Origin: a virus
Direction: 5' to 3' (one strand)
IMG/VR virus record: IMGVR_UViG_3300031758_000233
Span: 1 to 36,528 of that record
Length of the DNA stretch: 36,528 bases
Every line of letters begins with the position of its first letter. Position 1 is the first letter of the stretch. Below the pieces are notes generated by a model, which did not search any database, was not told where the DNA came from, and saw nothing but the letters and a program-made list of their open reading frames with translations. The position numbers and the translations under genes were made by a program. Positions 20,395 to 36,528 of this stretch are shown here, one piece after another.

Positions 20395-21027
20395 TTAAAG
20401 ATTGTTCTCTTTTGCGTATCTTTTCAATGGGTTAATAAAATAATCCTTATCATTTCTAGAAAAAGCATCATTAGAAATCCTGCCTTGGTCGATAATTCCT
20501 TGAGGGGTAGCCTTGAAATAGCTCCTCAACCAATCGTTTAAAACCATCATTTCTTTATTCTTTTGTGAGAAATGCTCACAATCCGGAACAACTAAAGTGA
20601 CATAGTTTTGAACCATATTAGCCAAAGCTTGCGGATTAGTTAGACTTAAGAATTTGGCTTTTAAATGATCAAAGCATCGGTTGGATAGGTCATTAAGGGG
20701 GTCGGCTAAAAACTCTTCCTTGGCTAAATGTGGCTTTAATAGAGCCATAATTTCATTTAGGGTCGGGTGCTTGTCCATTTTAAACGGGATTGTTTTGGTT
20801 ATTTGTAAAACTAAGTCGCATTTGTAACCCAAAGCGGCAAGATCAGTAGCCCAAAGCTTTAACGTGGCTTGATTTGGGGACCGCTCAAAACGTAGGGACA
20901 TATCTTTAAGGGCGTTTTCAATTTCGGCTTCATGAAAGCCCTGCCCCTTCTCGCTGTTAGCTATGCGCCTATTAGATTCATGGTCGCCCCAAGATTTATT
21001 AAAATTAACTGTGCTTGATATACTCAT
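20395..21027 (-). CDS. Putative helicase-loader-like replication protein
   Basis: The 210-residue, mostly helical protein starts with GGAGG 8 bases upstream, and its ATG overlaps the stop of the initiator-like gene. The segment LKLWATDLAALGYKCDLVLQ followed by HPTLNEIMALLKPHL resembles the helix pattern of phage helicase loaders (for example SPP1 G39P-like). The order initiator then loader is common in lambda- and P22-like phages. I see no Walker motif, so it is not an ATPase of the DnaC type. The call is tentative; it is probably needed to recruit the host replicative helicase. Confidence 0.4.
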   Translation of the reverse strand: MSISSTVNFNKSWGDHESNRRIANSEKGQGFHEAEIENALKDMSLRFERSPNQATLKLWATDLAALGYKCDLVLQITKTIPFKMDKHPTLNEIMALLKPHLAKEEFLADPLNDLSNRCFDHLKAKFLSLTNPQALANMVQNYVTLVVPDCEHFSQKNKEMMVLNDWLRSYFKATPQGIIDQGRISNDAFSRNDKDYFINPLKRYAKENNL

Positions 21028-21572
21028 TTCAAATCCTCCAAACCTTTAAAGAAATCGTTTTTCAAGTTTTGCGTATCGTCAGAAATAACTAGCTCCTCCT
21101 TTCCTATTCCTAATCCTTTTCCTATACCTATACCTAAACCTATTCCTATTCCTAATCCTGTGCCCCTGCCTAGCCCCTCCTTAGCCCCTAAATTTTTACC
21201 AGTTTCCAGGTAGTTACAAACTAGCCCCTCTATGAGCCCCTCAGGAGCCCCATGATACACTAAACTGTTAATGACGCCCCTATGAGCATTATTTTTTTCA
21301 GGATTAAATTTGGGATATTGAAAAAAGATAAACTTTGGTACAAAATAGACGCCATTTTTTACTTCAATTAATCTTCCGTTAAAATTATTAGAAACATCTT
21401 CTAGGGTTAAATTTGTTTCATTTAAAAAGTTAAAGTATTTTAATTGATCTTTCCAGATACCAGCATGGTCACAAGTATCTAAAATAAACAACCATAAAAG
21501 CTTGATTTCTGCTTTTAGGTCACTAAACCATGGGTCTTTCCATTTCTCCGAATCGGTGAATCTTTTTGCCAT
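21024..21572 (-). CDS. Replication initiator-like protein
   Basis: The 182-residue protein has AAAGGAG 5 bases before its ATG. Its N-terminal domain (KRFTDSEKWKDPWFSDLKAEIKLLWLF, split here by residues 9-27, then DTCDHAGIW) matches the winged-helix start of phage replication or replisome-organiser proteins. A short low-complexity region (about 134-160) of alternating Gly-Ile/Gly-Leu is encoded by hexamer DNA repeats. The C-terminus is a short acidic helix. The gene is first in the leftward operon, as expected for an initiator, and carries GGGGCT repeats that look like binding sites. It is shorter than usual initiators. Confidence 0.6.
   Translation of the reverse strand: MAKRFTDSEKWKDPWFSDLKAEIKLLWLFILDTCDHAGIWKDQLKYFNFLNETNLTLEDVSNNFNGRLIEVKNGVYFVPKFIFFQYPKFNPEKNNAHRGVINSLVYHGAPEGLIEGLVCNYLETGKNLGAKEGLGRGTGLGIGIGLGIGIGKGLGIGKEELVISDDTQNLKNDFFKGLEDLK
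21101..21172. repeat. Hexanucleotide tandem repeat inside the initiator gene
   Basis: Twelve consecutive 6-base units of the form NNCCTA or near variants (TTCCTA, TTCCTA, ATCCTT, TTCCTA, TACCTA, TACCTA, AACCTA, TTCCTA, TTCCTA, ATCCTG, TGCCCC, TGCCTA). In the gene each unit codes a Gly-Ile/Leu/Lys dipeptide. Such arrays can expand or contract by slippage without frameshift. They sit directly beside the GGGGCT cluster. Confidence 0.8.
21172..21251. repeat. AGCCCC iteron-like cluster, candidate origin
   Basis: AGCCCC occurs at 21172, 21183, 21223, 21235 and 21246 in the same orientation (GGGGCT on the - strand), with spacings of 11, 40, 12 and 11 bases, close to one helical turn except for the gap. 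AT-rich DNA flanks it at 21280-21420. Lambda places its origin iterons inside the initiator gene O, so this is a candidate origin. Inference only. Confidence 0.45.
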
Positions 21573-21628
21573 ATATGCTCCTTTGTGGGGCTAAACTTAT
21601 AGGGGATTACCTTTTGAGTAAATAGACG

Positions 21629-21800: not shown

Positions 21801-22769
21801 ATGAGTAAAGTGACTTTTCACGATTTAGTTTCTAAGCTAAAAGAACTTGCCCTAGAGCTAGAGAAGACGCCTACCCTTAGAGAGTTCTGTTCTCGTGGAA
21901 ACTCTAAAAGACAAATTGATAAATACAAATATTCAGAGATTGTTAAAGCCGCAGGCTTAGAGCCTAATAAGCACGCTCAGACAACTCCTCCGGTTGAAGT
22001 TGTTATTAGAAATCCTAAGATACTAGCTTTTGACTTAGAGCTTGCCCCTATAGTTGCTCAAGTGTGGGGTCTTTATGATCAAAACGTTGGGCTTAATCAA
22101 ATCCAATCTGATTGGTATATTCTTAGTTATGCAGCTAAGTTTTTAGATGAAGAACCAATCCACTATTTAGATCAAAGATATTCAAACCCTATTGAAGATG
22201 ACAGGCAGCTCTGCGAAGGTATTCACCATTTGATTTCTCAAGCAGATGTTTTGCTAACCCATAACGGAGATAAGTTCGATATAAAAAAGCTTAATGCTAG
22301 ATTCATTAAACATGGCTTAGATCCAATAGCTCCAAAGCAATCAATAGACACCTTAAAGATAGCTAGAAGGATCTTTTCTTTCACGTCAAATAAGCTTGAA
22401 TATATTGCTAAGTTTTTAGGTTGCTCAGAAAAATTAAAGCATACTAAATTTGCCGGTCATTCTATGTGGTCGGAATGTTTGAAAGGAAACGCCGAATCTT
22501 TTATGGAAATGGAACGCTACAACAAACAAGATGTTGAGACATTAATTGAAATTTATGAGAAACTGGTAAAGTTTGATCCGAGTATAAGCTTTGCGGCTTA
22601 TTCTCAAAAAAGAGTTTGTTCATGCAAAAGCGAAACATTTTTTAAAGATGGCCTGAGATATACTAAACAAGGTGCTTTTCAGGTCTTTAGATGTTCCGCT
22701 TGTCATAAATGTTTTACTGCCAAGGAAAATTTAATTGATAAAGACATCAGAAAGGGTCTGTTCAAATGA
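21801..22769 (+). CDS. DEDDy-type 3'-5' exonuclease (RNase H-fold) with zinc ribbon
   Basis: The 322-residue protein has three parts. Residues about 5-55 form a small helical domain (KTPTLREFCSRGNSKRQI, then AAGLEP) like modules attached to homing endonucleases. Residues 72-255 form a DnaQ-like nuclease: FDLEL with D78 and E80, HNGDKFD with D160, and YNKQD with Y240 and D244, i.e. a DEDDy active site. Residues 273-304 hold Cys pairs (C273, C275, C298, C301, C304), a zinc ribbon. It should digest DNA or RNA 3' ends. It heads the rightward early operon and is a second, different exonuclease from that at 18702. The ribosome site is weak. Confidence 0.75.
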   Translation: MSKVTFHDLVSKLKELALELEKTPTLREFCSRGNSKRQIDKYKYSEIVKAAGLEPNKHAQTTPPVEVVIRNPKILAFDLELAPIVAQVWGLYDQNVGLNQIQSDWYILSYAAKFLDEEPIHYLDQRYSNPIEDDRQLCEGIHHLISQADVLLTHNGDKFDIKKLNARFIKHGLDPIAPKQSIDTLKIARRIFSFTSNKLEYIAKFLGCSEKLKHTKFAGHSMWSECLKGNAESFMEMERYNKQDVETLIEIYEKLVKFDPSISFAAYSQKRVCSCKSETFFKDGLRYTKQGAFQVFRCSACHKCFTAKENLIDKDIRKGLFK

Positions 22770-26647: not shown

Positions 26648-26737
26648 GGAGAAGTGGTCGAGTGGTTTATGGCAACAGTTTTGAAAACTGTCGAAGGTTA
26701 GCGCCTTCCGTGGGTTCAAATCCTACCTTCTCCGCCA
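26648..26737 (+). tRNA. tRNA-Ser (anticodon TGA)
   Basis: The acceptor stem GGAGAAG/CTTCTCC, anticodon stem ACAGT/ACTGT with loop TTTGAAA (anticodon TGA), a long variable arm GAAGG/CCTTC, T-arm GTGGG/CCTAC with TTCAAAT, discriminator G and an encoded CCA all fit a class II serine tRNA reading UCA. Genes lie 7 bases upstream and 4 bases downstream, so it must be cut out of an mRNA. UCA appears frequent in the phage genes, so a codon-supply role is plausible. It could also mark an old integration site, but no integrase is present. Confidence 0.95.
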
Positions 26738-33948: not shown

Positions 33949-36528
33949 TGGCTTTACAAAGACAAACGTTATCTATCCAAATAGCCCAAGGCTTAGACAC
34001 CAAAACAGATGAAAAACAAGTACCAGCAGGGAAAGCGTTAGCGCTAGAAAACGTTAGATTTCAAAAGACCGGAAAGCTATCAAAGCGATTTGGTCTTGTC
34101 TTACAATCAACAGCCTCAACAGATGGCAATTTTTTAACAGCTAATAAGATTGCTTTAGTCTCTGATTCAAATAGTATTAGCTCAGTAACAGACAAGGGCG
34201 TTTATACACTATCATCGGTTAAAAACAGTTGGGATAACATATCTCAATTTAAAGATTTTCCAAAAGTAGCTTCTGATTTTATTTATAAATCATCATTGAA
34301 TCATTTTAATCCTGATATGGATTACAACGAAGAACTTAATCTTTGTGGATATGTATTTAGAGAGTATCAAGAGGGTGTAGCCCTTGCCGGTGCTTTAGAA
34401 TATGTAACTGTTGTAATAGAGGATTCTCAGACAGGTCTAAAGAAAACAAGAAAAAAGCTTATAAGCCCCGCAACAACAAACGTTTCTTTGAAATACCAGA
34501 AAAGCCAACAGAAAATAATGGTAGTAAAGAACGGAACTAGCGCAAGAATCATTGTGTTTTATGAAGTAAATAACTTTGACGGCGTAGTTGGTAGCTTTGT
34601 TATTAATAAATTGGTAATGGATGCCGATTTAAACATAATCTCAGAGGCAAATATTCCTTACGTGTTTACTTCTAACCGTTTACTGTCTACAAAGTTTGAC
34701 GTTTGCAGAGATTCAACATCTATTTTCTTTGCCCTACTAGATGAGTTTACTCTTCAAATGTATAAAATAGCATTTGATGGCTCAATAACGACTTCAAGAA
34801 CCAAAACCGTAGCTTTTAAGTTGGCAGTAAACACCTTATCTTATCCAATGGGTTTTTCTGTTTGCTTAAGCCCTAATGATTTTCATGTATTTTGGGTAGC
34901 TCTTGACGGTGCCTCTAGGTTTGTTAATTGTATTGCTTTTACTAAAACCCTAACCGATTCAGTACCAGAAGATTCTGTTGGTAATGTTGGGTTATGGGGA
35001 GACGTATCTGTAACCTATAACGCAGGTATATCTTTAGCCACTTCATCAGTAGAAAACTTTACAACAAAAAGAACAGTGTTTTACCTTACTAAACTCTCAT
35101 TTAATTCTTTTGGTTATACAATTGAATCAGTATCAACACAAATGAACAGAGTTTTCCATATTGGTCGCCCATTTGTAGTAAACGGATCTAATTTTATCAT
35201 AGCTAAAACTGTAGAAACAGATCAAAGAACCGGGTTGATTATAAACATCGATCAACAGAAATTTGTATCGTCATTTTCTAATTTTGATTTATCTTTAGAT
35301 AGAGAAGTGGTTCAATCGTTTTCAACATCAAATATTTGTAACTCTATCGCCTCAAACGGTGTTATTTATTGCGCTGTAGAAAGAATCTATGGACCATATA
35401 CGTCAAGCACATCAGCAACAGACTTTATCGCTAACGTGGGTATATCTAGGGTAAAATTAGATTTTAATACTGATTATACTTGTGGAACAAAAGCCAAGCT
35501 AGGCAAAACTATTTATTATACAAATGGTCCTACGGTTTCATTAGACGCCAAGTCTGCTTATGAAAGCAGCTTTTACTTGGGTCCTAAGATTGAATCAGTA
35601 ACCCAAACAACAGGAACAGCAAACCCTAACGTTGCATCAAAGACGTTTAACTATATCGCTGTCTATAACTACTACAACGGAAAAACAGAACTAGAAAGAT
35701 CAGTACCTTCTTCGTCTGTAGCTATTACAACTAACGCCTCTGCTTCAGCGGTTAATATTTTAGTAAAAGCCTTGACCGGATCTTGGAAGGATGACTTTGA
35801 TGGGGTTTTAGTACCTAACGGAACAATAAGAAGCCTAAGCGAAATTATTCTTTATAGAGCTTCCGCCGGAACTGGTGGGGTTTATTATCGATGCGCTAAC
35901 ATTCCAAATTCTAGTTTATATCTAGATGTTGCTCAATCCATTACAGATACAGCTTCAGACGCAGATTTATTAAACAATGAAAGGCTCTACACTACTGGTG
36001 GGGTTTTAGAATCTGATGCTACTCCTAATGCTAAATTCTCAACATCAGGAGGCAATAGGCTTTTCTTGGGTGGGCTAGAAGAACAAGACGAAGTGGCTTT
36101 TAGCAATAAACAAATTTTTGGAGAAGCCGTTTCATTCAATGGATTTAATAGAATTAGGGTTTCATCCGGAGCTAGTGCAGATAAAACACCAATCTCCGCC
36201 CTTGGTTATATGGATGCAAAGCTGATAATCTTTAGACAGCAATCAATCTACTTTGTTCAAGGTGACGGTCCTAATCTTCTTGGGATTGGCGACTTTACTG
36301 AGCCTGAAATCATATCTTCAGACGTTGGTTGTACTGAGCCGAGATCCGTTGTAAATACACCAAATGGGTTAATGTTTAAGTCAAGAAAAGGGATTTACCT
36401 TCTATCAAGAAATCTTGTGGTTGAGTATATTGGGGCTGCTGTTGAAGAGTTTAATCAATATAATGTAATGGCTGCCATTATTTCTGATAAGTTTAACGAA
36501 GCTAGATTCTACCTTTCAAATAATGATT
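33948..36528 (+). CDS. Tail hub/nozzle protein, N-terminal part (continues at 3-965)
   Basis: This open frame starts at ATG 33948, overlapping the previous stop, and runs off the window end. Joined to 1-965 at 36078, it gives 1031 residues. It begins TLSIQIAQGLDTKTDEKQ and has ALENVRFQKTGKLSKRFG, an N-terminal pattern of P22 gp10-like or T7 gp12-like tail proteins. The rest is beta-rich repeats, as in a beta-propeller nozzle. It is longer than those relatives, so it may fuse hub and additional domains. Its place after the adaptor fits. The whole protein can be read only across the circular join. Confidence 0.75.
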   Translation, partial: MALQRQTLSIQIAQGLDTKTDEKQVPAGKALALENVRFQKTGKLSKRFGLVLQSTASTDGNFLTANKIALVSDSNSISSVTDKGVYTLSSVKNSWDNISQFKDFPKVASDFIYKSSLNHFNPDMDYNEELNLCGYVFREYQEGVALAGALEYVTVVIEDSQTGLKKTRKKLISPATTNVSLKYQKSQQKIMVVKNGTSARIIVFYEVNNFDGVVGSFVINKLVMDADLNIISEANIPYVFTSNRLLSTKFDVCRDSTSIFFALLDEFTLQMYKIAFDGSITTSRTKTVAFKLAVNTLSYPMGFSVCLSPNDFHVFWVALDGASRFVNCIAFTKTLTDSVPEDSVGNVGLWGDVSVTYNAGISLATSSVENFTTKRTVFYLTKLSFNSFGYTIESVSTQMNRVFHIGRPFVVNGSNFIIAKTVETDQRTGLIINIDQQKFVSSFSNFDLSLDREVVQSFSTSNICNSIASNGVIYCAVERIYGPYTSSTSATDFIANVGISRVKLDFNTDYTCGTKAKLGKTIYYTNGPTVSLDAKSAYESSFYLGPKIESVTQTTGTANPNVASKTFNYIAVYNYYNGKTELERSVPSSSVAITTNASASAVNILVKALTGSWKDDFDGVLVPNGTIRSLSEIILYRASAGTGGVYYRCANIPNSSLYLDVAQSITDTASDADLLNNERLYTTGGVLESDATPNAKFSTSGGNRLFLGGLEEQDEVAFSNKQIFGEAVSFNGFNRIRVSSGASADKTPISALGYMDAKLIIFRQQSIYFVQGDGPNLLGIGDFTEPEIISSDVGCTEPRSVVNTPNGLMFKSRKGIYLLSRNLVVEYIGAAVEEFNQYNVMAAIISDKFNEARFYLSNND
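36079..36528. repeat. Right copy of the terminal overlap
   Basis: Matches 1-450 with 13 substitutions concentrated between offsets 122 and 323; the first 121 and last 127 bases are identical. All changes are silent. See the left copy for the meaning. Confidence 0.95.

Follow-up and report, generated by a model that had tools for sequence, protein, structure and literature searches.

Our data indicate that positions 21099-21251 of a tailed-phage genome are very probably a replication origin situated inside the phage's own initiator gene, after the fashion of lambda ori and SPP1 oriL. Conservation of this region at the level of DNA, the spacing of its repeats, their independence of codon frame, their uniqueness and, in relatives, synteny with helicase and loader genes are shown; the start of replication, initiator binding, melting, strand choice and helicase loading are inferred, and no experiment was performed.

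For most sequenced phages the origin has yet to be identified. Iterons at 11-bp intervals that keep a constant distance to a hexamer array within an initiator gene form a signature in two parts, recurrent in several unrelated initiator families, that would reveal origins and initiators directly in metagenomes. It also accounts for the KDKDKD, DIDKDI and GKGKGI repeats of phage replication proteins, as the translated trace of a DNA element. No published description of such arrays was found in the open-access literature searched (subscription literature and preprints lay outside the scope).

Genome setting and the initiator-like protein

The window – by which we mean the whole stretch of DNA analysed, an IMG/VR record of 36528 bases – is that of a tailed phage. 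Its ends (1-450 and 36079-36528) are mutual repeats of approximately 450 bases, not letter for letter throughout, and from these repeated ends it is likely that the genome is circular or terminally redundant. The initiator-like gene is the first, in the direction of transcription, of a set of minus-strand genes (Table 1). No polymerase, primase or helicase gene was seen among the window proteins scanned, so elongation would fall to the host replisome. A lone tRNA-Ser (TGA) gene lies at 26648-26737, just before a terminase-like gene.

The 182-aa protein comprises an N-terminal winged-helix-like domain (approximately residues 10-110), a disordered linker and a short C-terminal tail. AlphaFold2, supplied with a 38-row alignment, gave pLDDT values mostly above 90 at residues 10-110, with the elements in winged-helix order; values below 50 at residues 125-153, within the part encoded by the iterons and array, predict disorder. 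Searches of Pfam and PHROG produced no match, and comparison with the PDB, both by sequence and by fold (Foldseek), nothing significant. That this protein is an initiator is nonetheless likely, on the basis of fold, synteny and analogy only, without a library match or binding data. In relatives the next gene encodes a DnaB-type helicase (L095, L099, L053 and L028), a DnaC-like loader (L096) or a helicase/primase-like protein (L054 and L022); in others its nature is unknown. The next gene in the window encodes a 210-aa protein with an all-helical model. It is kept in three relatives, a fold search of its product gave no significant match, and its candidacy as a helicase loader is no more than a possibility, inferred by position only.

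Table 1. Coordinates of the origin region and of neighbouring genes in the window
Feature	Position	Strand	Remarks
Set of genes: RusA, weakly SprT-like gene, DnaQ-type exonuclease, Erf annealing protein, 210-aa gene, 182-aa gene	17.2-21.6 kb	-	
210-aa gene	20395..21027	-	ORF; next after initiator-like gene, overlapping its stop codon (ATGA)
Initiator-like gene, 182 aa	21024..21572	-	ORF
Hexamer array, 10 units in register	21099..21158	-	TRF 10.7 copies; purine-rich coding strand
Array units	21099..21158	-	GGATTA GGAATA GGAATA GGTTTA GGTATA GGTATA GGAAAA GGATTA GGAATA GGAAAG
Iteron core GGGGC (GGGGCACA variant)	21162..21166	-	Centre -6 from array start
Iteron core GGGGC	21173..21177	-	Centre -17 from array start
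Iteron core GGGGC	21184..21188	-	Centre -28 from array start
Distal iteron group	21224..21251	-	GGGGC at 21224-21228, 21236-21240 and 21247-21251, spaced 12 and 11
Further GGGGC core	21276..21280	-	Off the regular spacing
AGCCCC, opposite orientation	21587..21592	-	Inside terminator-like inverted repeat 21579-21606; ~15 bp upstream of initiator start codon
PHROG 'DNA polymerase exonuclease subunit' gene	at 21801		Divergent from 182-aa gene

Iterons and hexamer array

An initial annotation, made without database searches, had described five AGCCCC copies, mostly 11-12 bases apart, beside twelve hexamers within the coding sequence of an initiator-like gene. The first and last parts of this description held: exact copies lie at 21172, 21183, 21223, 21235 and 21246 on the plus strand (spacings of 11, 40, 12 and 11), and repeats and array alike lie inside the minus-strand ORF, the annotation having seen the complement of a coding strand that reads GGGGCT. 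The count of twelve failed, there being ten units. Reduced to its core, GGGGC, the iteron occurs seven times on the coding strand of the gene; AGCCCC has 19 copies over both strands of the whole window, against 9.15 expected. The three proximal cores are exactly 11 bp apart and abut the array. In the light of the comparisons reported below, these three constitute the conserved core of the arrangement and the other copies in the window are extra.

The array follows the pattern (GGWWWA)n, is 67% AT, matches RGWWWW at 59 of its 60 bases and is unique in the genome (by a scan allowing up to 2 mismatches per 30 bases). It encodes the peptide GLGIGIGLGIGIGKGLGIGK, and the earlier suggestion that dipeptide GI/GL repeats are a coding by-product held. 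Flanking AT-rich DNA, also claimed, was confirmed only in part and mainly on one side: the AT fraction is 0.73-0.80 at 21280-21460 versus 0.53-0.77 at 20950-21100. The sign of GC skew changes near 21.5 kb, where gene direction switches too; the check that had been recommended is thus confounded by gene orientation, and we have left it out as evidence.

In order to ask what the protein alone would impose, genes were resampled synonymously, the protein being held constant, codons drawn from the phage's own usage and the array score re-maximised for each resampled gene. The best array match in 600 draws was 57/60 (59 observed); GGGGCT reached at most 3 copies in 2000 draws (5 observed); and iteron pairs at 11-12 bp reached at most 1 (4 observed). 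Neither iterons nor array are therefore expected by chance given the protein and its codon usage. All six isoleucine codons of the array are ATA, a codon that accounts for 108 of 479 isoleucine codons (23%) in the phage's main genes. The GGGGC cores fall in all three codon frames, which rules out a repeated peptide as their cause, and, since 11 is no multiple of 3, the 11-bp register cannot be peptide-driven.

Conservation among homologues

A single-sequence protein search recovered seven loci together with Pseudanabaena phage Pan5, and a profile search 403 virus contigs (80 kept) and 12 bacterial loci, genomes of Bacteroidota, Bdellovibrio-type bacteria and Omnitrophica among these; clustering at 70% identity gave 49 distinct homologues. 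Just 3′ of the winged-helix domain, 45 of the 49 match (RGWWWW)6 at 31 or more of 36 positions, the window doing so at all 36. At a stricter cut-off (≥33/36) the array is found in 41/49 homologues versus 0/258 flanking ORFs, and a consensus-free measure, identity at lag 6 (≥26/36), separates 35/49 from 0/258. The consensus was derived from the sequences it describes, a circularity against which re-maximised resampling and consensus-free lag tests guard only partly. The array is weak or absent in a few homologues (L035, L043 and L101), and for many taken singly synonymous resampling was not significant.

The iterons are conserved in position. Tallies of the most frequent exact hexamer ahead of the array were too weak for single genes, and register and lag were analysed instead. 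In homologues, GGGGC/GCCCC cores of either orientation favour positions -39, -28, -17 and -6 relative to where the array starts; the window holds the last three. Other homologues carry alternative cores, for example GGGTT, ATACCCT, AGCTCC and AATCAT: phages differ in the core but retain the 11-bp register. Self-match upstream of the array stands at 0.432 for lag 11, compared with 0.272 in control stretches (z=15.5), and is again elevated at lag 22 (z=10.4). Pan5, an isolated relative, shares the arrangement in its gene at L009 6001-6807. Shortly after the array, five loci – L030, L091, L092, L095 and Pan5 (L009) – share near-identical DNA, GGGGGTGYGGGGGAAA (peptide GGVGE/GGAGE), which may be a further origin element.

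While the DNA is kept, peptide and frame change. Most homologues read the array as xxR|GWW|W.., giving KD, MD, QD, KV or KE; the window and 17 other members of an 83-sequence tree read it as GGx|xxx, giving GI, GL, GK or NS. Eight changes of frame are needed on this tree, at least four of them forced by well-supported branches, with the caveat that the tree rests on few columns and contains many unresolved forks. The window is itself a frame-0 member among frame-2 relatives (its sister L022, then L010, L017 and L021). The junctions of the window (GCAGGGGCACA|GGATTAGG), L017 (TAGGGGCACA|GGTAAAGG) and L013 (TAAGGGCACA|GGATAAGG) show nearly the same DNA in different frames. It had been proposed that the origin reading would be refuted by relatives that keep the protein and lose the DNA repeats. 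We found the opposite: relatives keep the DNA layout but not the peptide, which favours a function for the DNA. The candidate origin is thus supported by relatives, direct evidence of replication being absent.

The initiator gene and any such array are absent from the three genomes closest by the 210-aa gene (G001-G003), records that are possibly incomplete; replication there would start in some other way. In G001 (L361 2994-4053) the slot of the window's initiator is occupied by other genes, two of them small and HNH-like by sequence, and the array was found nowhere in its 32-kb record. This absence of gene and array together raises the possibility that initiator and origin form a swappable module. 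Upstream of the 210-aa gene, L342 (~1650-1850) and L344 (~1400-1620) share a conserved non-coding stretch (GGTGAGAGGGAATAGA..., GCTTTTCGGAGCCGAGGT.TATAG). It had no Rfam match, and might be a structured RNA or a leader.

The same layout in unrelated initiator families

When viral contigs were scanned blindly for (RGATAW)5, at least 120 matches resulted, including 28 in the window family, 74 within other ORFs (90 aa or longer) and 18 without such an ORF. Matches in other families fell largely in genes for replication initiation. Among the 74 were 19 DUF6291, 10 Phage_rep_org_N, 4 DUF1376 and 1 Lin1244_N proteins, and the commonest named PHROGs were replisome organizers, DnaD-like helicase loaders, primosomal proteins and replication initiation proteins. 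The replisome organizers of Oenococcus phage phi9805 and Ruminococcus phage phiRM10 possess the array; no array was found in a Bacillus phage replisome organizer that is followed by the phage's own loader and helicase. A scan for (RGTAWA)4 recovered 18 members of the window family and 12 Lin1244_N proteins, but was less specific, matching GK-rich structural proteins and non-coding repeats too. Profile comparison by hhalign, using small alignments, detected no homology between the window family and Phage_rep_org_N, DUF6291, DUF1376 or Lin1244_N.

The 54 distinct stretches upstream of arrays outside the window family, a few non-initiators included, carry iterons at 10-12 bp (lag 11, z=10.3). Over 392 hexamers the consensus unit is R-G-A(.80)-T(.64)-A(.85)-A(.80), and the complementary, pyrimidine-rich strand has T at mostly every third base (TnnT-like). 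The pattern read in reverse, used as a control, found 46 stretches in the whole collection, 31 of them outside any ORF of at least 90 aa, in contrast to the at least 120 stretches of the forward pattern and its 18. It is not a clean control: (GATATA)n and (AGGTAT)n are alike when read backwards. Other initiator-like genes (L281, L368 and L372) contain a hexamer array on the opposite strand, there encoding IPIPIP.

Proposed mechanism and alternative explanations

We suggest that the 11-bp-phased iterons are duplex docking sites for the initiator, which binds them through its winged-helix domain. Such phasing, approximately one iteron per helical turn, would place all of them on nearly one face of the DNA. 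Bound initiator would then oligomerise and melt the adjoining hexamer array, one strand of which, with its period of six, may be held single-stranded by the initiator or a partner. Next, the initiator, probably together with the product of the next gene, would load the replicative helicase onto one defined strand, and the host replisome would carry out elongation. The array, in this view, is a strand-specific element for unwinding and helicase loading, read by the initiator or a host factor.

A bolder reading, which we consider somewhat less likely than not, would make the hexamer array a loading element common to phage origins in general, strand-specific and equivalent in function to DnaA-trios or the DnaD recognition element (DRE), with a reader shared by many phages. 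It arises because unrelated initiator families keep 11-bp iterons and the RGWWWW array while the iteron core differs by phage. Candidate readers would be the host's machinery for helicase loading, SSB or a way of oligomerising that initiators share. Were it true, sequence alone would suffice to call phage origins over much of the virosphere.

Two alternatives to an origin deserve discussion, both of which we consider very unlikely. The first holds that the array is a feature of the protein – a low-complexity linker produced by hexanucleotide slippage – without a role as DNA. In its favour, the region is predicted to be disordered, tandem hexamers do arise by slippage, KD and GK linkers are hydrophilic and many resamplings of single homologues were not significant. 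Against it, the hexamer is kept while the peptide varies (KD, MD, KV, QD, NS, hydrophobic GI/GL and, in opposite-strand arrays of other initiator-like genes, even IP), the frame of the array switches, codon choice in the window preserves the pattern, 11-bp iterons precede the array and flanking genes lack arrays. Slippage may well be the means by which arrays grow.

The second alternative is that the iterons are not an origin but operators, through which the initiator or some other protein of the phage exerts autoregulation or controls transcription. Winged-helix proteins often repress their own genes, and the extra AGCCCC just upstream of the start codon, with its inverted repeat, is conceivably an autoregulatory site, although this is an inference. 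However, the main cluster lies deep inside the gene at a fixed distance from, and abutting, the array; no excess of promoter-like sites was found at the cluster; and the same arrangement recurs in several initiator families. Operator and origin roles could coexist. A third possibility, that the cluster is some other cis-acting site in an early gene, for packaging, partition or recombination, is in our view extremely unlikely: repeats phased with the helix are found in partition and packaging sites too, but the cluster travels with sequence-unrelated initiator genes beside helicase and loader genes, not with terminase or par.

Comparison with known systems

The origin reading has precedents. 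In lambda, iterons in the initiator gene dock the O protein and an adjoining AT-rich tract melts, O also binding single-stranded AT-rich DNA (PMC7466680). The likeness to lambda ori noted in the initial annotation fits: in lambda and Stx phages the origin is in the middle of gene O, iterons are followed by an AT-rich tract, and the loader gene P comes after O. Lambda iterons are longer, at approximately 18-19 bp; the cores described here measure about 6 bp, follow an 11-bp register and can also be inverted, and the presumed unwinding part consists of regularly repeated hexamers. No sequence relation of the window protein to lambda O-like families was found in Pfam or PHROG.

SPP1 offers another precedent, oriL, which lies in gene 38: direct repeats dock gp38 and an AT-rich element unwinds (PMC6316719). 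Like the window, SPP1 has direct repeats and an AT-rich unwinding element within the initiator gene; its module also holds a helicase loader gene, for which the window has a candidate by position only. Unlike the window phage, it encodes a helicase of its own, gp40, and has oriR as a further origin. On similarity to the gp38 family, the evidence is limited to the absence of a PHROG match for the window protein.

Plasmid Rep proteins bind duplex iterons and one specific strand of the unwinding element simultaneously (PMC4081077). RK2 (TrfA) and F (RepE) are alike in pairing duplex-site iterons with an unwinding element that is bound on one particular strand; the unwinding repeats of RK2 are 13-mers in the plasmid oriV, whereas those of the window are hexamers inside coding sequence. 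In the unwound region of Bacillus subtilis one strand binds DnaA and the other binds DnaD via TnnT motifs (PMC10201434). The DnaA-trios and DnaD recognition element likewise place repeated single-strand motifs beside initiator boxes, a resemblance only. Identity of the array with DnaA-trios was rejected, the repeat unit being six, not three.

Among Phage_rep_org_N, DUF6291, DUF1376 and Lin1244_N proteins, to none of which the window protein has a Pfam match, there are members that resemble it in having a hexamer array (RGATAW or RGTAWA) behind the N-terminal domain; taken together, the RGATAW carriers have 11-bp iterons before the array, as does the window family. Set beside these systems, the window shows the sequence features of an intragenic origin, while binding by the initiator and a start of replication there are inferred: its repeats lie inside an initiator gene, identified as such by fold and synteny only; spaced iterons stand beside an AT-rich element; and the DNA repeats are conserved independently of the peptide they encode.
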